IMG/VR virus record: IMGVR_UViG_3300032278_000115
Coordinates: 1 to 24,481 of that record
Direction: 5' to 3' (one strand)
DNA from: a virus
DNA length: 24,481 nucleotides
The notes below the pieces were generated by a model that was given only the letters and a program-made list of their open reading frames with translations, was not told the DNA's origin and did not search any database. A program made the position numbers and the translations under genes. Shown piece by piece: positions 2,415 to 22,257 of this stretch (position 1 is its first letter; every line of letters begins with the position of its first letter).

Positions 2415-2578
2415 GCTTCAAACATCCAGTCCTGGTATAAGTCAGGTCGCAACTTTGCGTTGCGTAAAATCTTTTTCATATTTCTAAAGTCCTTTTTTTG
2501 CATCCACATTCCGTATATCCACATACTTATAAACAGAAGATTGAACATTACCGATGCACCCAGAATAAACGCTACCAT
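2411..2578 (-). CDS. Small single-span membrane protein between terminase and portal
   Basis: A 55-residue protein starts at ATG 2578, with GGGGAG about 8 nt upstream. A longer version from 2638 would only read the end of the terminase gene in another frame. Residues about 2-27 are strongly hydrophobic (VAFILGASVMFNLLFISMWI), followed by a basic tail. It is predicted to be an inner-membrane peptide with a single span. It overlaps the terminase by 7 nt and the portal start by 4 nt, so it is part of the operon. I know no function for it; a hydrophobic peptide in the packaging operon is unusual. Confidence 0.65.
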   Translation of the reverse strand: MVAFILGASVMFNLLFISMWIYGMWMQKKDFRNMKKILRNAKLRPDLYQDWMFEA

Positions 2579-3774
2579 ACAACGGACTCCCCAATACGGC
2601 GAATTATAGGCCACTTGTATTCGATTGCATAGGAACAAGCATCAAGCGCATGAGTTAATTCGATATTAGATTTATCGATCCCGCCCTTCTTATCCCGTTG
2701 TACTTGCTCTAAATCTTTTATGAGATACTTACATTTCGGATCAATGGTCATAGTTACATCTCCATTAGCATTAACCAACTTCCGATTCAATGCGTTCAGC
2801 CGATCAATATGCGATGGATGGGATTTCTTTGCCCGAACTGCATAACCATAATCACGAAGGATTGAATGATCGCTGCGGTGTGAAGTTGTTGATCTGGCAC
2901 TACCCGCCGGGTCCGGATATATCGTGGTAACTTCAGGCCAATTCTTTCGCATAGCCTTTGACATTGCTTCCGTATTAGAATTGGATTGTCTTATCTCATC
3001 ATAATAATGAACCGTTCCATCGGTGTATTCACAAGCAAGGACGGCAGTCATATAATCGACATTCATGTCCATCCCGATCCATTTAGTCGGTGCAATATCT
3101 TCTGCCTTCTTTAGATGTATCTCACGATCAAAGTTATATGCAGCGCGATTGCCTGTGGTTTCAAACGATCCTTCCATTTCCTGACGGTATAATCTTCCGT
3201 CCATATTAGATCGGATACGCTTGATTTCATCTTTTTCAACAAACCCGCCTTCAACTGTCTTGAACTGCCAGGACTTCCAATCGGTATCGGATTGCCCCTT
3301 TAAATACAGATCATACATTGCGTTATATCCAGACGGTGTTCCGATGAACATGGCTTGGCCTTTGGATGTGGCTAACATTGGTAGTATGATTTCTTCCCAG
3401 ACATAAGGCTTGAAGTAAGCGTATTCATCCAGGATAACTTTGTTGATTCCCGCACCTCTTAATGAGTCCTCATTGTCAGCACCCTTTATACATATCTCTG
3501 CCCCATTAGATAAAATAACCGACAATCCTGATTCGTTGATCTTGGCTTCCGAATGATGACGAAAGAGTCGTTTCAATACCGGCCACGCGATCATCTTCCC
3601 CTGGCGATAGGTCGGTGCTATGTACCACAGAGAATTGTTCTCCATAATTTCTTCCGAAAGCAGCCACATGATAGCAAGATGAGTTTTCCCCCATCTTCGC
3701 CCCGCCACGACTACCTTGAACCGGTGCGGATCGTTTATTATTTCCTTGCGTACTGCGTTTCTTTGCCACTTCAA
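2572..3774 (-). CDS. terL: Terminase large subunit (packaging ATPase/nuclease)
   Basis: This is the motor that pumps DNA into the procapsid and cuts the concatemer. The N-terminal ATPase has Walker A AGRRWGKT (residues 24-31), Walker B VILDEY (113-118) and the coupling motif IGTPSG (144-149). The C-terminal RNase H-like nuclease has acidic residues in GMDMNVD (234-240), YPDPAG (287-291) and HALDAC (375-380). At 400 residues it is slightly shorter than many terminases but complete. It starts 4 nt inside the preceding small terminase-like gene (ATGA). The following membrane peptide and portal overlap in turn. Confidence 0.97.
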   Translation of the reverse strand: MKWQRNAVRKEIINDPHRFKVVVAGRRWGKTHLAIMWLLSEEIMENNSLWYIAPTYRQGKMIAWPVLKRLFRHHSEAKINESGLSVILSNGAEICIKGADNEDSLRGAGINKVILDEYAYFKPYVWEEIILPMLATSKGQAMFIGTPSGYNAMYDLYLKGQSDTDWKSWQFKTVEGGFVEKDEIKRIRSNMDGRLYRQEMEGSFETTGNRAAYNFDREIHLKKAEDIAPTKWIGMDMNVDYMTAVLACEYTDGTVHYYDEIRQSNSNTEAMSKAMRKNWPEVTTIYPDPAGSARSTTSHRSDHSILRDYGYAVRAKKSHPSHIDRLNALNRKLVNANGDVTMTIDPKCKYLIKDLEQVQRDKKGGIDKSNIELTHALDACSYAIEYKWPIIRRIGESVVW

Positions 3775-4106
3775 TCTTCAAAATCAAAAACCTTTATAGG
3801 CTCGGTCTTTACCGTTGTTTCCCTAAATTCTTTTGCCTTCCCTTCAGTTCTATCCGCAATGAATTGGACCGCCCAGGGTCTGCCCTCTACTGCGAATTGA
3901 AAAACTTTATACAAAATTACATCGAGTTTGCTCTTGCCATCTACCGTGCCATCTTCTTCGCCGATCTTGCGAAGTATATCGGGAATGGATTGAATGCCTT
4001 TAGGTCTGCCATTTGGATTGCCAGATACGCCCGGCTTGAATCCTTTGCCTGTGATTCCACCAAGCATTTTGCCGTTGCTTTTCGTTGATCTATTAACGTT
4101 AGGCAC
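3771..4106 (-). CDS. DUF5681-like protein, probable small terminase subunit
   Basis: This basic protein carries GKGFKPGVSGNPNGRPKG near its N-terminus, the signature of the DUF5681 family that is common next to phage terminases. It continues as a helical domain with FAVEGRPWAVQFIADRTEGK. It overlaps the large terminase start by 4 nt, which is the usual place of the DNA-recognition (small) terminase subunit. The start is uncertain. I prefer GTG 4106, which overlaps the preceding methyltransferase by 8 nt. ATG 4067 and TTG 4163 are alternatives, and none has a strong Shine-Dalgarno. The terminase role is inference from family and synteny. Confidence 0.65.
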   Translation of the reverse strand: MPNVNRSTKSNGKMLGGITGKGFKPGVSGNPNGRPKGIQSIPDILRKIGEEDGTVDGKSKLDVILYKVFQFAVEGRPWAVQFIADRTEGKAKEFRETTVKTEPIKVFDFED

Positions 4107-5277
4107 TCGCTGCTTCAATTCTTTCTGATTGTTTCCCAGTATATACTTCCCAACGCTTAACAATTACATCGCAATAATGCGGATCTATCTCCATCCCATA
4201 ACACTTACGATTAGTCTTTTCACAAGCGATTAGTGTTGAACCAGAGCCGAGAAATAAGTCTAATACAATTCCATTTTTAGGTGAACTGTTTTTGTTGGCT
4301 CTTTCTGATAATGCTATTGGTTTTTGAGTAGGATGATATTCGTTTTTACTTGCTCTGTCGTATTCCCATAATGTTACTTCATTGTTTTCACCATACCACT
4401 TTGCGGTTTTGCCTTTCTTGTGTGCATAAAAACAAGGCTCGTGTTTACCTTTGTATTTTGCACTTGACATAAATTGTGCGTGATTCTTTGCCCATATTAT
4501 TTGTGCAGAAATAACCAAACCAGAATCAGCAGTTGCAGTTGCAGTTGCAGTTGCATCAGCATACCATACATAAAAAGCACCATCATCTTTTAACGATTCA
4601 ACCGCATAAGGCATAAATAAAGAATATATTTCTGTTCCAAGATTGTCATTTTTTAATTTATTTTGTTTCTTCATCCCACCATCATAATCAACTCCATAAG
4701 GCGGATCAGTAAACACCATATCAGCCTTCTGCCCATCCATCAATCGTTCCACATCTTCCTTCTTTGTCGCATCCCCGCATAATACCCGATGCTCTCCCAA
4801 TAGCCACATATCCCCCGATTGTGTAACCGCTTCTTCAACCTCTGGTACATCGTCATCGTCAATTAATCCTGGCAACGGTTCAGGATCATAAAATTGCAGA
4901 TCATCTTCGCTAAATCCCCATTCCAACAATTCACCAACGTCAAAATGGTTGGCTAACGCGTCCCAATCCCATTGGCCTGTGTTCTTATTGAGCCGGACAT
5001 TTAATTCCCGTTCTTTATTGGGAGTAAGATTTACTTCAACACAAGGCACGTCTTTATATCCAAGTTCCTTTACGATCCGCAGCCGTTGATGACCGCCGAC
5101 CAGAATATTCTTGCGTTCTTTGTGGGTGTTTACAATTAACGGATCAACCAGGCCGAAGCGGGTGATCGAGTCTTTTAAGTCTTGGTGTTGGATTTGTGTA
5201 AGTTCGCGCGGGTTATATTCTGCGAAGATAATATCAACTATGGGATATGAAACGGTTGTTAAGTTACCGTTTTGCAT
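4099..5277 (-). CDS. ParB-like nuclease-domain / DNA methyltransferase fusion
   Basis: This 392-residue two-domain protein has a ParB/Srx-type N-terminal domain (about residues 10-105, with NPRELT and GGHQR at 61-65). It is followed by a DNA methyltransferase with DPPYG (191-195, catalytic motif IV) and the SAM-binding motif LDLFLGSGSTL (339-349). The DPPY type suggests N6-adenine (or N4-cytosine) methylation. Such fusions are common just upstream of terminase in phages. They may protect phage DNA from restriction or mark packaging sites. Residues 241-251 are an alternating Ala-Thr run encoded by a hexanucleotide repeat. The ATG at 5277 lies inside the 3' end of the preceding small gene. Confidence 0.92.
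   Translation of the reverse strand: MQNGNLTTVSYPIVDIIFAEYNPRELTQIQHQDLKDSITRFGLVDPLIVNTHKERKNILVGGHQRLRIVKELGYKDVPCVEVNLTPNKERELNVRLNKNTGQWDWDALANHFDVGELLEWGFSEDDLQFYDPEPLPGLIDDDDVPEVEEAVTQSGDMWLLGEHRVLCGDATKKEDVERLMDGQKADMVFTDPPYGVDYDGGMKKQNKLKNDNLGTEIYSLFMPYAVESLKDDGAFYVWYADATATATATADSGLVISAQIIWAKNHAQFMSSAKYKGKHEPCFYAHKKGKTAKWYGENNEVTLWEYDRASKNEYHPTQKPIALSERANKNSSPKNGIVLDLFLGSGSTLIACEKTNRKCYGMEIDPHYCDVIVKRWEVYTGKQSERIEAASA
4529..4552. repeat. Hexanucleotide tandem repeat (GCAGTT)x4 inside the ParB-methyltransferase gene
   Basis: Four perfect copies of gcagtt lie on the plus strand, followed by a partial copy. On the coding strand they encode alternating Thr and Ala, just before the strand containing ISAQIIW in the methyltransferase domain. 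The unit length is a multiple of three, so gain or loss of units changes loop length without shifting frame. Confidence 0.9.
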
Positions 5278-8156: not shown

Positions 8157-8199
8157 GTTTTATTTCCTTTAATAATTCTTCCAGTTCGTAATTCTTCAT
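8149..8199 (-). pseudogene. 16-codon remnant copy of the NinG-like C-terminus
   Basis: A tiny frame from ATG 8199 encodes [16 protein letters not shown]. The C-terminus of the NinG-like protein upstream reads [18 protein letters not shown]. The shared residues come from the 27-nt direct repeat (8170-8196). I read it as a leftover copy of the NinG-like 3' end created when the methyltransferase gene entered, not as a functional gene. It may still help translational coupling from the methyltransferase stop (TAATG) to the nuclease start. Confidence 0.55.
8170..8196. repeat. Direct repeat copy 2 (27 nt, downstream side of methyltransferase)
   Basis: This stretch matches 9142-9168 at 26 of 27 positions (one t/c difference). 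It lies immediately after the stop of the TSPPY methyltransferase gene. The other copy lies immediately at its start, so the pair brackets the gene exactly. Confidence 0.9.
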
Positions 8200-9140
8200 T
8201 ATACAAATAAATCCTGTTGTATAAATCTTTTTTCTGCAATCTTTATATATTCTGGATTTAATTCAATTCCAATCCATTTCCTTCCCAATCTCTGCGCCAC
8301 CCATCCCGTTGTCCCAGATCCAAAAAACGGATCAAGAACAATATCACCTTCATTACTTCCGGCCATAATACATAATTCTGGTAATTTATCTGGGAATACG
8401 GCAAAATGTGCTTCTTTATAAGGTTTTGTTGTGATAGACCAAACAGATCTTTTATTCGCTTGTCCGTTAGTTGGTCTTAACATTCCAGAACCCTGTTGCG
8501 CGTTTCCTGGATAATTTCGATCTCGCCTTTGTTCTGTATAATTGCCATTGAATAGTCTTTTGTCGTTAAAAGTGGATGGTTTTAAATCTTCTAACATTTG
8601 ATTGAATTTGTATTTGGCAGATTTACTTAAAAGAAATATATATTCGTGTGCCTTTGTGCATCTATCCGTAACAGATTCTGGCATTGGATTAGGCTTATGC
8701 CATATAATGTCTTGCCTTAAATACCATCCATCGGACTGCAAGGCAAATGCTAAACGCCACGGGATCCCAACAAGATTTTTTGGCGGTAAATTGGTTTTTA
8801 CTTTAATATCGCCAGAAGTTTTTTGCATTTCTTGAACTCGATTCGTTCCGCCCTCTCTTTTATTTGTATTAAATCCTTTGCCTTGTTGCCTACCGTAACA
8901 ATCCCCCAAATTCAACCAAAGCGTCCCATCGTTCCTTAATACTCGTTTCACTTCACGAAATACTTTGACCATATTTTTTACATATTCTTCTGGAGTTTCC
9001 TCAAGTCCAAGTTGCCCATCAGATCCGTAATCCCTTAATCCCCAGTATGGCGGAGAAGTAACAACGCATTGAATTGACCGGTCCGGCAAATCCTTCAACC
9101 GATCAAAAACATTACCTTGATAGATGTGATTTAATTTCAT
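8199..9140 (-). CDS. DNA methyltransferase, TSPPY type (N4-cytosine or N6-adenine)
   Basis: This 313-residue beta-class methyltransferase has catalytic motif IV TSPPYW (28-33) near the N-terminus and SAM-binding motif [11 protein letters not shown] (270-279) near the C-terminus. The central target-recognition region includes [19 protein letters not shown] and [15 protein letters not shown] with this order is typical of N4-cytosine enzymes, though N6-adenine activity is possible. No cognate restriction enzyme is obvious next to it, apart from the unrelated-looking PD-(D/E)XK protein. It is probably anti-restriction. It overlaps the NinG-like gene by 29 nt and is bracketed by direct repeats, suggesting recent acquisition. 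Confidence 0.93.
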
Positions 9141-13917: not shown

Positions 13918-14142
13918 TTATTTCCCGTTTCTGAAAGAACGCAATAAATCACGATTCAATTCTTGGATTTCGTCTTTCGTTTCTTCCATCGCTTTTGTGA
14001 TCTGATCTTTCAAATTATCCATGCGGCGGTGCATCGCAACAACCTTTGAATCGACTTTAATGAATTTGGCAATTAGCGTAATACATAAAACCGCAAGGAT
14101 CGCGGATACGCCCAGACTTTCGATAATACTTGGATCAATCAT
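13918..14142 (-). CDS. Small membrane protein with coiled coil, holin-like
   Basis: This 74-residue protein has a short N-terminus (MIDPSIIESLGVSA), one hydrophobic span (about 11-28, VSAILAVLCITLIAKFI), then a charged coiled coil (about 34-70, MHRRMDNLKDQITKAM and beyond). Small single-span proteins with a charged tail at the end of the tail operon are often holins or holin partners, so a lysis role is plausible. It is the last gene before the terminator. The start ATG 14142 overlaps the preceding stop by 4 nt. It could instead be a structural anchor in the H-NOX cassette. Confidence 0.7.
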   Translation of the reverse strand: MIDPSIIESLGVSAILAVLCITLIAKFIKVDSKVVAMHRRMDNLKDQITKAMEETKDEIQELNRDLLRSFRNGK

Positions 14143-14429
14143 CTTTTCAATCCCATTTTTTGAAGTAAACTTCGTTGCGTTTTGATTTCTTCCTGTAATT
14201 CTTCGTTGTGATGTTCCAATTCTTTAAGATGTTCGGCTTCCATATCAGCCATTTTGGAATTTAAAACTGTAATTTCTGTATGCAATTCTGCAATAGTACG
14301 CTGCATTTCATTCATCTTTGAAGTTGTCTGATAATAAGTCCCGACAACAATAGCAGTAACCGCCAATATTTTGAGTAGAAATGATACGGAAATCTGTAAA
14401 GATAATTGGTCATTTATTGTTTTCGCCAT
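14139..14429 (-). CDS. Membrane-anchored coiled-coil protein
   Basis: This 96-residue protein has an N-terminal hydrophobic span (about 13-33, SVSFLLKILAVTAIVVGTYY) followed by a long continuous coiled coil (about 38-90, MNEMQRTIAELHTEITVLNS and on). The layout resembles a signal-anchor protein with a periplasmic or cytoplasmic coil, as in some spanin-like or holin-accessory proteins, but there is no lipobox. It starts 20 nt inside the MshEN-like gene and overlaps the next gene by 4 nt. Its coil could pair with those of both neighbours. Confidence 0.7.
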   Translation of the reverse strand: MAKTINDQLSLQISVSFLLKILAVTAIVVGTYYQTTSKMNEMQRTIAELHTEITVLNSKMADMEAEHLKELEHHNEELQEEIKTQRSLLQKMGLKR

Positions 14430-14904
14430 TTCTTAATCTTTCCACTTCTTTTTCAAGTGTATCAATTTTAAACACGTTTGCCTGTATATCGGCCTGGAGT
14501 GCGTACCACATACCTATTAATGATATTAGGCCAGTTATAGCCGCTACCATTGTTTGAATTGATAATGTGAATTTTTTTTTTAGTATTTCATCCTCACTCA
14601 CAGATGATTTAGCAGAGGTTGGTACTGCCTTTGATACAACCGGCTTTGGCGTGATCTTCTTTTGGAAAATTTGTTTCTGTAATAACCGATCCCGCTTTGA
14701 CTTTTCTCTTTCAGATTGCGCGTCCTTCGCTTCACCCAACATAACTTCGGTTAGGTCCTCAATGGTAATGTATCCCATTTCAGTCAGGATTTGCCCAAGT
14801 TCTTTATCATCGCCATTAGACTGTTTGGCGATTGCTTCCGAAAGCTGTCGCTTTGTGATAATATCAGCATCCATTAACAACTTGCCTAATTTACTTTTAG
14901 CCAT
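14410..14904 (-). CDS. Membrane protein with N-terminal MshEN/T2SSE_N-like domain
   Basis: This is a 164-residue protein. Residues 5-28 (KLGKLLMDADIITKRQLSEA...) and 35-56 (ELGQILTEMGYITIEDLTEV) are two consecutive copies of the pattern found in the N-terminal domain of type II secretion/pilus ATPases (T2SSE_N/MshEN), some of which bind cyclic di-GMP. A charged linker (57-110), one membrane span (about 112-136, TLSIQTMVAAITGLISLIGM) and a short coiled coil (IDTLEKEVERLRN) follow. No ATPase is present. The second motif lacks the leading Arg/Lys, and the first has Asp where Gly is usual, so ligand binding is uncertain. It overlaps the H-NOX gene by 8 nt. Confidence 0.75.
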   Translation of the reverse strand: MAKSKLGKLLMDADIITKRQLSEAIAKQSNGDDKELGQILTEMGYITIEDLTEVMLGEAKDAQSEREKSKRDRLLQKQIFQKKITPKPVVSKAVPTSAKSSVSEDEILKKKFTLSIQTMVAAITGLISLIGMWYALQADIQANVFKIDTLEKEVERLRNGENNK

Positions 14905-15448
14905 CAGCAGTAAACTTTACTTCAAATACATCATGTTCATCAGTCCCTTTATATTCTATCTGGGTAATATCTGCCTTACCGCCAAAATGTTGGGCAATGC
15001 CTTTTAATGTTCCTATTGCTAATGGTGCTAATCCTTCCCGTGGCGATTCATAATGAATTTCAAAATGATTATCCCCAAGTTTTTCTATTTTAAATGATGG
15101 CGGGGATAAGTTGGGTAACATTTGTGCAATCCTAACGTGCATCTCATCCAATCCCCCAACAAAAGTTTCAAAGTCATTACCAAAGGCGTTAAAATAATCT
15201 CCGTATCCTTTTGGTGCTACCTCTAACGCCCAATAGACACCGAACATTTCTAAAACATCTGATGCCGGGATACCCAATGTTTCCGATGTTGCCCCGACAA
15301 GTGAATAAGTAACAGAATCATCATATCCTTCCATACCTTCAAATACGTCATCACCTACCCCAGAAGATTCAAGGACTTGATTCCATACTTCTTCCCCGGC
15401 TTCCCTTGTAACCAGAGTCCTGATGGCTTCGTTAATCATTCCATACAT
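14897..15448 (-). CDS. H-NOX (HNOB) heme nitric-oxide sensor protein
   Basis: This 183-residue protein is a complete stand-alone H-NOX domain. It starts MYGMINEAIRTLV, with GEEVWNQVLESSGV, SVTYSLVGATSETLGIPASD and FGVYWALEVAPKGYGD. It then has the proximal heme ligand H104 in LDEMHVRIAQMLP, conserved P117 in SPPSF, and the propionate-binding Y133-x-S135-x-R137 in YESPREGLAP. The position of the distal Tyr of O2-binding members (Tyr140 in Thermoanaerobacter) is Pro142, predicting an NO-selective sensor. It has no cysteines, so the zinc site of some family members is absent. ATG 15448 has AGGATGG upstream, inside the end of the 30-residue gene. It probably signals to a partner, since it has no output domain. 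Confidence 0.96.
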   Translation of the reverse strand: MYGMINEAIRTLVTREAGEEVWNQVLESSGVGDDVFEGMEGYDDSVTYSLVGATSETLGIPASDVLEMFGVYWALEVAPKGYGDYFNAFGNDFETFVGGLDEMHVRIAQMLPNLSPPSFKIEKLGDNHFEIHYESPREGLAPLAIGTLKGIAQHFGGKADITQIEYKGTDEHDVFEVKFTADG

Positions 15449-15452
15449 TTAA

Positions 15453-15545
15453 TTACCATCCTATTCCAAATACAAATGCGATTGCGGTCCATATTCCAAA
15501 CGCGACTAAAAATCTCGCATATAGATTCCCAAATTTCTGATTCAT
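15453..15545 (-). CDS. 30-residue single-span membrane peptide
   Basis: A frame of 30 codons begins at ATG 15545 in a TGATG overlap with the tail gene and stops 4 nt before the H-NOX start. The product begins MNQKFGNLYAR and is then almost wholly hydrophobic and aromatic (FLVAFGIWTAIAFVFGIGW). Its last codons carry the Shine-Dalgarno of the H-NOX gene. It is a membrane peptide of the size of small phage or host regulatory peptides. It may be a lysis or membrane factor, or mainly a coupling device for H-NOX translation. Confidence 0.65.
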   Translation of the reverse strand: MNQKFGNLYARFLVAFGIWTAIAFVFGIGW

Positions 15546-16636
15546 CAAAATTCTTCTTCAACGGTTAAAGATATATTGTATAAGTCCGGTGCGACTTGCG
15601 CCATATCCAAAGAATTGTTTGCGAACCTGGCAAAGATATGTTCCGATTCTGCATTGTCGCCTTCCGAATCCGCATCAATCGAAAAGATGAATGGGATATG
15701 ATTGCCATTGGTCTTATTCCAAACGTCATCAACAAAATTATCATCTGATGCGAGAATATCATATTCATCCGGCATCATATTAGCCGCACTTAAAAAACTA
15801 AAATTCATATCGTAAATAATTCTTCCGCCTTGACTATGGTATCCATTGGAAGCCGTTGTGAACGGCGATTTGGACGCACTCTCCGCCGTTCTACCGTATG
15901 TTTTCAAGTTACTAAATCGTTGTCCACCGTTTGATTCCTGTAAATCGTTCATTCTATTATATGAGATCATCCGGGTTACATTTAAATCGGGGGCGTGTGG
16001 CATTTCAAAATATTCTCCGATCATAATACATCCAACAAACATATCGGTAGTTCCCCACGTTCCGTTTGTAGCAACTCCCGTATTTGTGGTATTGCCTTCA
16101 AATTGTATTCCCCAATAACGCAACCCCGTTTCCGCAAATCTGATAATTGTGCTACCATCCGTTGCCGGTTCAATTACAACGCTTTTATCATTTGATGCTG
16201 CGGTTGTTGTATCACCATTAACAACATCTATTGCAGTATCATCCCCCCACGCAATGTCCGCCGTATCTGCATTTGCGCCATCTACTGCGGTAACATCACT
16301 TGCTATATCACCCGCAAATATTCTAATTTTCCCAACAGAACTAACCAGGTTATGATTTAGGATTGCGATATAAGATTTTTTTAAAGTTGTACTTTGTGTA
16401 TCAATCGTAATTAATACATGGGCATCTGTGTCTGCGCTTGTATCGAATGTGCATTTATTCAACGGGTTCATATCAAACAGTTCTGGTTCTGATCCTGTCG
16501 TAAAAGTTCCCATAAATAAATTCGTGGTATTTGATGCCGTAACATCAAACTCACCGTTCTGCGCAACACCTCTGCTCATAAGATGATTAATTATATCTGG
16601 ATAAAAACGCGGTGTTCTAATATTCATATTTGCCAT
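15545..16636 (-). CDS. Tail-associated virion structural protein
   Basis: This 363-residue beta-rich protein has many Thr/Asp/Asn runs, as phage tail tip and baseplate proteins do (for example TFTTGSEPELFDMNPLN, RYWGIQFEGNTTNTG, GEYFEMPHAPDLN). The RYWGIQFE segment resembles the carbohydrate-binding-like beta sandwich of tail proteins. It follows the large tail hub-like gene with a TAATG overlap and is the last obvious structural gene of the operon. It is probably in the distal tail; the receptor-binding role is not proven. Confidence 0.65.
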   Translation of the reverse strand: MANMNIRTPRFYPDIINHLMSRGVAQNGEFDVTASNTTNLFMGTFTTGSEPELFDMNPLNKCTFDTSADTDAHVLITIDTQSTTLKKSYIAILNHNLVSSVGKIRIFAGDIASDVTAVDGANADTADIAWGDDTAIDVVNGDTTTAASNDKSVVIEPATDGSTIIRFAETGLRYWGIQFEGNTTNTGVATNGTWGTTDMFVGCIMIGEYFEMPHAPDLNVTRMISYNRMNDLQESNGGQRFSNLKTYGRTAESASKSPFTTASNGYHSQGGRIIYDMNFSFLSAANMMPDEYDILASDDNFVDDVWNKTNGNHIPFIFSIDADSEGDNAESEHIFARFANNSLDMAQVAPDLYNISLTVEEEF

Positions 16637-19131: not shown

Positions 19132-20577
19132 TTACCCAATCCTCGCCTGTCCTGTCGAGATCGCTTTATTTATGGCGGGGATAATATTATTGGCGGCAAA
19201 ATTATGGTCGATAACACCCATGCCGCCGAAGTTTTGATTGATTGTAATTCTACTGGCAGATGCTGCCATTCCCGCGCTTGGTGCGGTTTGTGTAGGTGAT
19301 GCACCGAAAAGAAAATTAGCAGCCGACATTAACCATGAGCCAGGTCCACCGGCGACAACTTGCATCGCAGCCATTTTTTCTTGAATGGCTTCTTGTATTT
19401 TTAATTGAGCCGTAATTAAAACTTGCTGAAACAATGCTCTTTTAAACGCATCTGCCACACTATCACCCATTGCGGCAGAAACTATTAATGATGTCGATGT
19501 TTGCGCGGTAAACTTCGCCAAGTTTTCAGATGCTTTTGCAGATAAGGAAATCGTATTCGCAATATTATCTGCGCCCTGTGTTGTTTCCTTTAAACTTTGA
19601 GCTGTCTTTTGTAATTCCGCTAATACTGGTGATAATATTTCCCCGGTTCTTGGGAATTTTTCTAATATGTTTGAAATTGCAGCAATTTGTTGTTGGATTA
19701 TATCAATATTTCCTTCTTCAATTACCGTCCTTGCATCAATCGCCATTTGTTTAACAAACTCTCTTGTTTCTTTTGGCAAGGTTAAAAATTTTATTTCTTT
19801 TACTGCGCCTTGTGTAAACTTTAAAAACCTAACTAATGAATCCGCTGCCGTTTCAACAGCCGCAGAAAAAGTTGTTCCCAATTCAATGGCGGATTCTTCA
19901 AGCGCAGCCTTCATTCTGTTTATGTGATCGGCTGAAGTAAGCGTTTCAGCACCAAGTTTATTAACTAAAGTATTTGCTTGGGACATTGCAGCATTTACAA
20001 AGGCTTGTTTCTTTTGTTGATCTGATAATTGAGAAACTGTAACCCCCAGATTTTCAGCGTAATCTTTATACGCTTTATTGGTATCAACCATTATACCAAG
20101 ATTGTCCAACATTAACTTTGATTGCCGACCAAGACCAGTAACCATTGATTCGATCCCGAAAGTCGTATCTTTTCCCAGGGATGAAGCAAGTCTTTGTGAA
20201 ATATCAAATAGTTCTGCCATTTGATCTTCGGAATCAACAATTCCCAAAAGCATCGCATTATTAGCCTGTGTCATTAATTGCATTGACGACATTGTGCCAT
20301 CCGTTGCTTTTTGCAATTTTCCTAATGATTGAGAAGAAAAACCTGATGCTTTCGCAAGATTACTGAATCCTCTTTCTACTTTTTCAAATCTTCCCGCAAG
20401 TTCAATAGAACGAGTCAATCCAGTAATTAAACCTCTTGCAGCAAAAAAGGATGCCCCGACTTTTAGGGCAGATTTTCCGACAGATTTCAGTCCTTTATCA
20501 ACGCCCTTTAAATCATCTTTTGTTTTCTTGCCACCAATCAGACGAAGTTTAATAAAAAGGTCTTTAATATTTGCCAT
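19132..20577 (-). CDS. Tail tape measure protein (short)
   Basis: This 481-residue protein has the typical order. The N-terminal helical region (LRLIGGKKTKDDLKGVDKGL, VGKSALKVGASFFAA) leads to the SSQSLGKLQKATDGTMSSMQ and NNAMLLGIVDSEDQM region found in many tape measure proteins, then long amphipathic helices. The Gly/Ala-rich C-terminus contains GGPGSWLMSAANFLFG and ITINQNFGG. Tape length sets tail length; at roughly 1.5 Angstrom per residue this implies a tail near 70 nm. It follows the frameshifted chaperone genes, as expected. The start ATG 20577 overlaps the upstream stop. Confidence 0.88.
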   Translation of the reverse strand: MANIKDLFIKLRLIGGKKTKDDLKGVDKGLKSVGKSALKVGASFFAARGLITGLTRSIELAGRFEKVERGFSNLAKASGFSSQSLGKLQKATDGTMSSMQLMTQANNAMLLGIVDSEDQMAELFDISQRLASSLGKDTTFGIESMVTGLGRQSKLMLDNLGIMVDTNKAYKDYAENLGVTVSQLSDQQKKQAFVNAAMSQANTLVNKLGAETLTSADHINRMKAALEESAIELGTTFSAAVETAADSLVRFLKFTQGAVKEIKFLTLPKETREFVKQMAIDARTVIEEGNIDIIQQQIAAISNILEKFPRTGEILSPVLAELQKTAQSLKETTQGADNIANTISLSAKASENLAKFTAQTSTSLIVSAAMGDSVADAFKRALFQQVLITAQLKIQEAIQEKMAAMQVVAGGPGSWLMSAANFLFGASPTQTAPSAGMAASASRITINQNFGGMGVIDHNFAANNIIPAINKAISTGQARIG

Positions 20578-20981
20578 TAGTTATTTTGTTCCGATTTAAA
20601 ATTCATACAGGCATTTATTTCCATATCAATAATTGAAAAACAGTCCAAACGATGTGCCGAAATATCGTCCAGATTCCCAAGCGATATATTGAATCGCGTA
20701 ACGTAATTAAATTCGTTTATCATTTCCATCATCCAGGGTTCGACAATTTGATTGCAGTCTGCAAAGAATGGGACCATATGAAACAAAGTTTGACCATCAG
20801 TAAACTTTTCTTCTGGTTTGCATATTTCATTTATTATGTTCCATATATCTTCTTTTGTTTGCACTCGCACCGGATCGTGTTTATAAGTAACCGGGAGTCG
20901 AGCCACAGTATAGGGGAGGCATCTATAAACATCACGCGGTTCTGGCATCCCAAACTGCCAACACCAAACCGCAAGGCTCAA
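20577..20981 (-). CDS. Tail assembly chaperone T-part (made by -1 frameshift)
   Basis: This 134-codon frame lies one nucleotide back (-1) from the G-like gene upstream. On its own it could only start at a poor TTG (20981) that overlaps the G-part stop and has no good Shine-Dalgarno. The slippery run A AAA AAA at 20999-20993 joins the frames as KK then RFRG then LSLAVWCWQFGMPEP, giving a fusion of about 224 residues. This is the G/GT arrangement of siphoviral tail chaperones, which bind the tape measure during assembly. WCWQFGMPEPRDVYRCLPY resembles the T-domain opening of other phages. Confidence 0.75.
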   Translation of the reverse strand: MSLAVWCWQFGMPEPRDVYRCLPYTVARLPVTYKHDPVRVQTKEDIWNIINEICKPEEKFTDGQTLFHMVPFFADCNQIVEPWMMEMINEFNYVTRFNISLGNLDDISAHRLDCFSIIDMEINACMNFKSEQNN

Positions 20982-21250
20982 CCCCCGGAATCTTTTTTTG
21001 ACGGTTGAAGTCCCAAGTATTCAAGAAAAACTGCCTGAAGAACTGAATCGACATCCGGCATATCCATATCCTTGAAATCGTTTTCTCCAAGTCCGGCAAT
21101 CGCGCCCACTTTTTCCAAAACATCGTAATATGATTCCACGTCCATTTTGCCATCCCACCAGACTTTTGCGTTGAGTTTGTGTAACTCCCGCCGTTCAGAG
21201 TATGTGCAATCATTTACATCCCATTCTTTTTTACCAACTTTAACAACCAT
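20978..21250 (-). CDS. Tail assembly chaperone G-part
   Basis: This 90-residue acidic protein (MVVKVGKKEWDVNDCTYSER, ending LGLQPSKKDSGG) lies between tail tube and tape measure, the place of lambda gpG-like tail chaperones. The seven-A slippery run sits a few codons before its stop, so most ribosomes make G and a fraction make the G-T fusion. The start ATG 21250 follows the tail tube by about 17 nt, with GGGAGG upstream. Confidence 0.78.
   Translation of the reverse strand: MVVKVGKKEWDVNDCTYSERRELHKLNAKVWWDGKMDVESYYDVLEKVGAIAGLGENDFKDMDMPDVDSVLQAVFLEYLGLQPSKKDSGG
20993..20999 (-). promoter_or_regulatory. -1 programmed ribosomal frameshift site (A AAA AAA)
   Basis: In the zero frame the coding strand reads TCA AAA AAA GAT, an X XXY YYZ heptamer of seven A. 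The -1 frame is open across it and continues as the T-part. Downstream, a two-part hairpin (GCGGTT at 20972-20967 with AACCGC at 20941-20936, inner TTGGCA-like stem with TGCCA) begins about 20 nt after the slip site and could stimulate slippage. Confidence 0.75.
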
Positions 21251-21267
21251 TTAACCTCCCGATTTAA

Positions 21268-22257
21268 TTAAGTTGCGATTATTGTGATTAGCGCACCCGA
21301 TCCATCTGCTGTTGCTTTGAACGGTAAATTAATAAATACGCCACTATCTGTACTCGTATGAGTATATCCTGTATATTTAGCCGTTGGAATATCGAAGTCA
21401 ATCGCTGATCCGTCACCAATGCTAATGTTTACAGAAGTCCCGGCTGTGAAATCGGCTATTGTATCAGTTACATTATCATCCAATTTCGCACTTACATTTC
21501 CGGTAACTTCAATCATTCCGCCCCTCATATAAGATGAAGGTTCTGCTTCAATTGAATTAACTGTTTCATATCCAACCCTTGTTGCGGGATTAGAAATTGT
21601 AACATCAAAATTATTTAATACTACATTGTCACCGCCAATAGTCATGGTCGTACAATCAAAAAATCCTTCTGAATAATCGGCAGCAGTTGCGTTTGCTGAA
21701 GTTCCTTCTGTTCCGATTACGGGTTGATAACCAGACCAGAATACTCCTGATGCCGTTAATCTTCCACCGTTAGCCGTTGGGTTCATACTCAATGTTAATT
21801 CTTGCAGAATTGAAGAAAACATTAATTTATCTTTATCCGCATCCGGCGAAGAAATAACAACACAAGCATATTCGCCTGTCGATGCGCCTTGTTCATAAAC
21901 GACTGTAGCTTGGTTTCCTGTCATTTCCGCCGATACCGAAGGACTTGTATCTTCAGTTACTAATTGCAATAGAAGTTGTAATAGCGTTTCGCTCTCAACT
22001 ACATAATCACTAAATGACCATGTAAAAGTCCCGCCTTTAAATACAGCGATATGATCTGTTGGTCTTTGAACTCTTTGTCCAGTTCGTATTACATCAGCAA
22101 AAGTTGAACCGGCTGAATAATCAATATCATTCACTTCCGGTGTTCTTAATTTATACAGCGTACCCGATACATCATTCGTTCCTAAAGCATCTGATTGCAG
22201 CGAAACATAAGATTCAAATTGCTTACCGGAATAGACTGTGTTGTCTAAACTTGCCAT
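21268..22257 (-). CDS. Major tail tube protein
   Basis: This 329-residue, beta-rich protein comes just before the tail chaperones. It starts MASLDNTVYSGKQFESYVSL and contains FKGGTFTWSFSDYVVESE, VVYEQGASTGEYACVVI and LQELTLSMNPTANGG. The C-terminal Thr/Asp-rich domain (from about residue 240, GNVSAKLDDNVTDTIADF) includes SFSD and ISNPA-type turns seen in tube proteins. Siphoviral tube proteins stack as hexamers around the tape measure. The leader AAAGGAAATAAAAA precedes ATG 22257. Identification is by position, fold texture and length. Confidence 0.8.
   Translation of the reverse strand: MASLDNTVYSGKQFESYVSLQSDALGTNDVSGTLYKLRTPEVNDIDYSAGSTFADVIRTGQRVQRPTDHIAVFKGGTFTWSFSDYVVESETLLQLLLQLVTEDTSPSVSAEMTGNQATVVYEQGASTGEYACVVISSPDADKDKLMFSSILQELTLSMNPTANGGRLTASGVFWSGYQPVIGTEGTSANATAADYSEGFFDCTTMTIGGDNVVLNNFDVTISNPATRVGYETVNSIEAEPSSYMRGGMIEVTGNVSAKLDDNVTDTIADFTAGTSVNISIGDGSAIDFDIPTAKYTGYTHTSTDSGVFINLPFKATADGSGALITIIAT

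Follow-up and report, generated by a model that had tools for sequence, protein, structure and literature searches.

A group of environmental bacteriophages, probably marine, carries a gene for a stand-alone H-NOX (HNOB) heme NO/O2 sensor that is directly followed by a gene for a membrane-anchored partner protein with an MshEN-type domain. The genomic evidence argues strongly for a link between these two genes, and we consider the chances about even that the phage protein, an NO-type H-NOX by prediction, regulates its membrane partner within the late or lysis module. The window referred to throughout is the whole stretch of 24,481 nucleotides analyzed here (IMG/VR record IMGVR_UViG_3300032278_000115), and positions are given on this stretch.

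H-NOX serves as the receptor domain in animal guanylate cyclase and in the control of biofilms by bacteria. The window copy lies at 14897..15448 on the minus strand and encodes 183 amino acids; the interval is open only in that direction (15448 to 14897), the plus strand being non-coding. This is genuinely an H-NOX gene. Its product matches PF07700 (HNOB) with 157.3 bits (E 4e-46, cut-off 25.5) over positions 1-162/163, its best PDB match by phmmer is the Nostoc Alr2278 H-NOX (6e-46), and an AF2 model (pLDDT 82) has the H-NOX fold, with a Foldseek TM of 0.91 to the Nostoc structure 2o09. The proximal His104, the conserved Pro117 and the YxSxR heme-propionate motif (Y133/S135/R137) are all present, and align with H105, P118, Y134, S136 and R138 of Nostoc and with H102, P115, Y131, S133 and R135 of T. 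tengcongensis, whose sequence in the alignment was verified against 1u4h. A prior sequence-only reading of the window had claimed a full-length 183-residue domain with all signature residues, and the profile search and structure prediction that it proposed agree with it.

The distal side of the pocket informs the likely ligand. The column of the T. tengcongensis distal Tyr140 holds Leu143 in the window protein and Met144 in Nostoc; the same residue as Leu143 occupies this position in all full-length phage copies, so that the hydrogen-bonding tyrosine is absent, and window Trp73 corresponds to the distal Trp74 of Nostoc. Since the distal tyrosine is absent, family-based reasoning predicts an NO-type sensor, and heme loading and NO selectivity are accordingly expected, from homology, of the phage proteins. 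The sequence-only reading had reached NO selectivity by placing Pro142 at the distal tyrosine position; the actual residue is one further along, and the prediction itself is supported by the lack of an O2-stabilising tyrosine. The protein could alternatively be a heme-independent redox sensor, as PMC7108781 proposes for Vibrio cholerae H-NOX, where some H-NOX proteins are described as responding to oxidation through cysteines. The window protein and the aligned phage copies contain no cysteine, on which ground Cys/zinc redox sensing was rejected, and we find this alternative barely credible.

The window derives from a phage, as indicated by a terminase large subunit gene (2572..3774, minus; phrog_2 8e-43), and the tape measure gene at 19132..20577 (minus; phrog_3779 2e-16) identifies the setting of the H-NOX gene as a phage tail module. 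Upstream of H-NOX within this module lies a gene for 363 amino acids (15545..16636, minus) that has no family match. The partner gene (14410..14904, minus) follows H-NOX, with an overlap of 8 nt between its start codon and the H-NOX stop (ATGGCTAA). The partner in turn overlaps by 20 nt a gene at 14139..14429 (minus), whose small product has an N-terminal TM helix and a long coiled coil by hydropathy, a spanin-like layout with a weak match to the Rz-like spanin family phrog_739 (E 0.003). This gene overlaps by 4 nt another at 13918..14142 (minus), for a 74-aa protein with an N-terminal TM segment and a charged helix (hydropathy, sequence). The overlapping ends of H-NOX, the partner and the two further genes resemble those of translationally coupled operons. 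The gene type at 14139..14429 is conserved after the H-NOX/partner pair in contigs L002-L006, L012 and L017. These small membrane/coiled-coil genes downstream of H-NOX are succeeded by HicB-like and DNA-methyltransferase genes. Promoter and terminator scans returned no more than expected by chance. The sequence-only reading had described a phage-encoded gas sensor inside the tail operon; the sensor stands by sequence and fold, and its position is the operon's end. Late expression with the tail genes, which that reading also proposed, is suggested by position and orientation. It missed two features: a partner gene that overlaps H-NOX and is transferred with it, and an association with genes for lysis.

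Several other features of the window were recorded. Directly before H-NOX, at 15453..15545 on the minus strand, lies a 30-aa single-TM micropeptide (MNQKFGNLYARFLVAFGIWTAIAFVFGIGW) that is conserved in contig L002 and is possibly a pinholin-like peptide. Two DNA methyltransferases are encoded at 4099-5277 (-) and 8199-9140 (-), and the first is a fusion with a ParB-like N-terminus. A known anti-phage defence system was considered and rejected: PADLOC defence models gave no match for H-NOX or the window partner, and neighbouring genes gave only weak matches of a coiled-coil type.

Phage H-NOX genes were found on 14 further IMG/VR contigs, with 73-93% identity to the window copy, and there are nine distinct full-length sequences, the window included. 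A tblastn search of the sequenced phages in INPHARED found no H-NOX and BFVD held no H-NOX-like model; a wider viral scan based on an alignment of phage and cellular H-NOX yielded no second phage lineage, but used a few exact short patterns and so could miss divergent copies. The phage gene is under strong purifying selection, with dN/dS among copies of 0.03-0.16, values that are rough as many dS estimates are near saturation. In a tree with cellular relatives, a comparison that the sequence-only reading had called for, the phage copies form one clade on a long stem with support of 99/99, and the nearest cellular relative is about 43-44% identical. A phage-only clade on a long stem with distant cellular relatives indicates an established phage lineage rather than a recent capture.

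These data bear on the explanation that phages picked the gene up from a host recently, or that it is an artefact of binning or assembly, and that it has no phage function. H-NOX is common in bacteria, which lends this explanation some plausibility, but it is already contradicted by the phage-only clade and distant relatives, by the low dN/dS, by the occurrence of the same H-NOX/partner junction in 12 contigs, and by the presence of H-NOX in only 2 of 245 genomes of the likely host phylum, where it is of a type different from that of the phages. We rate it as very improbable. A chimeric contig, named in the sequence-only reading as grounds for refutation, is likewise contradicted at this locus: the junction recurs in 11 viral contigs other than the window, and the surroundings of the gene have the same GC (0.38-0.40) as the window.

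Binning evidence suggests that the host phylum is Marinimicrobia (Fidelibacterota). Window DNA matches short contigs of several metagenome-assembled genomes (MAGs) of this phylum, the best (4e-101, 66% over 1.6 kb) pairing window 20595-22172 with contig G107:C17 at 66% DNA identity. Among 242 genomes of the Roseobacter order, a control that differs in composition and genome type, no window DNA match was found at 1e-8. In the Marinimicrobia MAG UBA6531, one contig has a tape measure gene and then, at its end, the same H-NOX (26 aa, 100%), while a second contig starts in the partner; this is a further arrangement of the two genes, seen on contigs that do not include a junction between them. Short near-exact matches in Marinimicrobia genomes were considered as CRISPR spacers and rejected as being at chance level.

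The partner lies directly downstream of H-NOX, overlapping or abutting it, in 12 of the 12 contigs with downstream DNA. It comprises an MshEN-type domain (aa 4-60) and a charged linker, followed by a single TM helix (about aa 112-134, by hydropathy) and a short coiled coil; positive charges on the N side of the helix suggest that the N-terminus is inside the cell. The first 60 residues score 45.8 bits in the window and 53.3 in L009 against NCBIfam NF053729, an MshE-related c-di-GMP-binding domain (cut-off 38). The best PDB relatives of the domain are PilB (1e-10) and MshE (9e-5), and the top six Foldseek matches are all MshE/PilF c-di-GMP domains, but with E values of 0.1-0.5. MshEN homology is thus shown, and c-di-GMP binding would be the corresponding prediction. 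Compared with the MshEN consensus motif (PMC5013675), the window partner has Asp for Gly in motif I, and Glu for both Arg and Gln in motif II, so that the conserved ligand residues (R/L/G and Gln, both motifs) are not intact. These departures at key ligand positions make c-di-GMP binding by the window copy doubtful. The H-NOX-linked partners of another backbone (L007, L008, L009 and L013) passed a relaxed motif for motif II only; the motif-II Gln is kept in the H-NOX-linked partners of that backbone, whereas most copies lacking H-NOX carry Ser, Thr, His or Asn at this position.

The main rival to regulation of lysis is that the pair targets second-messenger or pilus/secretion physiology of the host. 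The MshEN domain would imitate the N-domain of host PilB/GspE-type ATPases and sequester c-di-GMP or the pilus platform, H-NOX would add NO dependence, and the outcome could be superinfection exclusion, detachment or biofilm exit. The partner domain is indeed closest to PilB/MshE N-domains and is also near PilB-like proteins (about 560-590 aa) of Marinimicrobia genomes; bacterial H-NOX usually acts on c-di-GMP turnover (PMC8738867); and pseudopilin genes occur near the partner in some phages (L029, N_methyl 4e-8). Against these points, the window partner has lost key ligand residues, and the partner is anchored in the membrane, carries a coiled coil and is usually encoded beside thioredoxin-like, holin or endolysin genes. 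We judge this rival rather unlikely, while giving it more weight than any other rival.

The comparison of phage backbones indicates that H-NOX and the partner are transferred together. They are the only genes common to the window, the L004 type and the L007/L013 type (blastp 1e-6, covering part of each contig), a TM/coiled-coil gene being shared by the window and L004 only, and backbones that are otherwise unrelated thus share this one cassette. The window terminase was absent from the 12 other H-NOX records tested, which are fragments. About 37 contigs have the partner but lack H-NOX, and 20 such partner-only records, checked whole, contained no H-NOX anywhere. In the partner tree, H-NOX requires three changes, and one of the rows scored as lacking it merely ends at the contig end. 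Occurrence alone in so many contigs argues that the partner has a function of its own, to which H-NOX looks like an optional add-on input.

Lysis genes lie near the pair in some backbones. An endolysin of GH108 (phrog_315 6e-45) or M15 (phrog_465 1e-40) type is encoded 0.8-1.5 kb downstream in L002, L004, L005, L006 and L012, and a 3-TM holin (phrog_3427 1e-26) about 0.45 kb downstream in L007 and L013, giving seven contigs in total; beside the pair in the window, L008, L009 and L015, no gene could be assigned to a holin or endolysin family. The neighbours in the window, two TM/coiled-coil proteins and the 30-aa TM micropeptide, gave no confident family match. Where H-NOX is missing, the phrog_3427 holin is often encoded 0.4-1.2 kb from the partner, and the next gene after the partner is nearly always one for a secreted thioredoxin-like protein. 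Tail and lysis genes often stand side by side in phage late modules, and proximity is for this reason not function.

Other genes around the partner are varied. The secreted thioredoxin-like protein (PF00085; L007:9223-9630 and equivalents) is encoded right after the partner in nearly all L007-type contigs and is absent from the window type. In L015, a short MscS beta-domain protein (PF00924; 1943-2362) is encoded downstream of the H-NOX, partner and thioredoxin-like genes. Two H-NOX-less contigs (L026:2866-3507 and L044:7064-7714) encode, close downstream of the partner, a Popeye-type (POPDC) membrane protein that includes a cyclic-nucleotide-binding domain (PF04831 and PF00027), another sensor-like membrane protein. 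A type IV pilin-like prepilin gene lies near the partner at L029:7905-8333 and also in L026 and L054, and some contigs have a PAP2-type phosphatase gene downstream (L028:8338-8958).

For regulation of the partner by H-NOX, we propose the following mechanism. Inside the infected cell H-NOX would take up heme and bind NO, and ligand binding would alter how H-NOX contacts the partner's MshEN-type domain in the cytoplasm; this domain may have a ligand of its own, either c-di-GMP or a protein. The signal would cross the single TM helix to the coiled coil and pass to the holin/spanin/endolysin apparatus encoded nearby, resulting in NO-dependent lysis or another late envelope event. We infer both the physical interaction and lysis as the output, lysis being the most likely late membrane event under partner control. 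These observations suggest that these phages may respond to a gas signal and adjust accordingly how or when they act on the cell envelope. More tentatively, an NO receptor and a membrane-anchored domain of c-di-GMP-receptor type may together form a two-input switch gating lysis or an envelope step, which would report on the infected cell's redox/denitrification or biofilm state; we regard this as possible but not probable. Phage H-NOX might instead act as an NO sink that detoxifies and shields the infected cell, as the heme-protein fold should bind NO tightly and a virus with norB-nirK has been reported from an oxygen-minimum zone (PMC8115048). H-NOX is, however, a stoichiometric binder and not an enzyme, and strict coupling to one membrane partner is unexpected for a scavenger, so that we consider this role quite improbable.

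If regulation by H-NOX is correct, viruses sense a diffusible gas during infection by means of a conserved pair that crosses between unrelated phages, and the partner is a candidate H-NOX output beyond kinases, cyclases/phosphodiesterases and chemoreceptors. It also makes an NO response of phage late functions testable, which is relevant to low-oxygen, denitrifying waters. The open-access literature, as covered by titles, abstracts and term counts, yielded no report of H-NOX or HNOB on a phage genome and none linking NO to lysis timing. The sequence-only reading had not regarded a phage H-NOX as an established trait.

Phage lysis regulators such as spanins and antiholins (for example T4 RI/RIII) are small membrane proteins of the late/lysis module that can adjust lysis in response to the environment. 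The H-NOX cassette resembles them in encoding small membrane proteins in such a module, a likeness with no sequence relation demonstrated, and we know of no phage lysis regulator that uses a heme gas sensor. The phage H-NOX shares with Nostoc Alr2278 (PDB 2o09, 4iae) the full-length fold, the proximal His, Pro and YxSxR motif, a distal Trp and the absence of a distal Tyr, but is about 39% identical and resides on a phage genome. Unlike stand-alone bacterial H-NOX, whose canonical signalling operons have an adjacent histidine kinase, GGDEF/EAL enzyme or chemoreceptor, it neighbours an MshEN-TM protein. The viruses with norB and nirK are comparable in carrying genes tied to NO chemistry; those genes encode metabolic enzymes, in contrast to a sensor domain, and PMC8115048 makes no mention of H-NOX. 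Finally, the partner has the 53-residue double motif of the MshEN/GSPII-B c-di-GMP receptors (MshE, PilB, PilF and NfrB), motif II being degenerate in the window copy, but it has no ATPase or glycosyltransferase; its domain is joined by a short linker to a single TM helix and a coiled coil.
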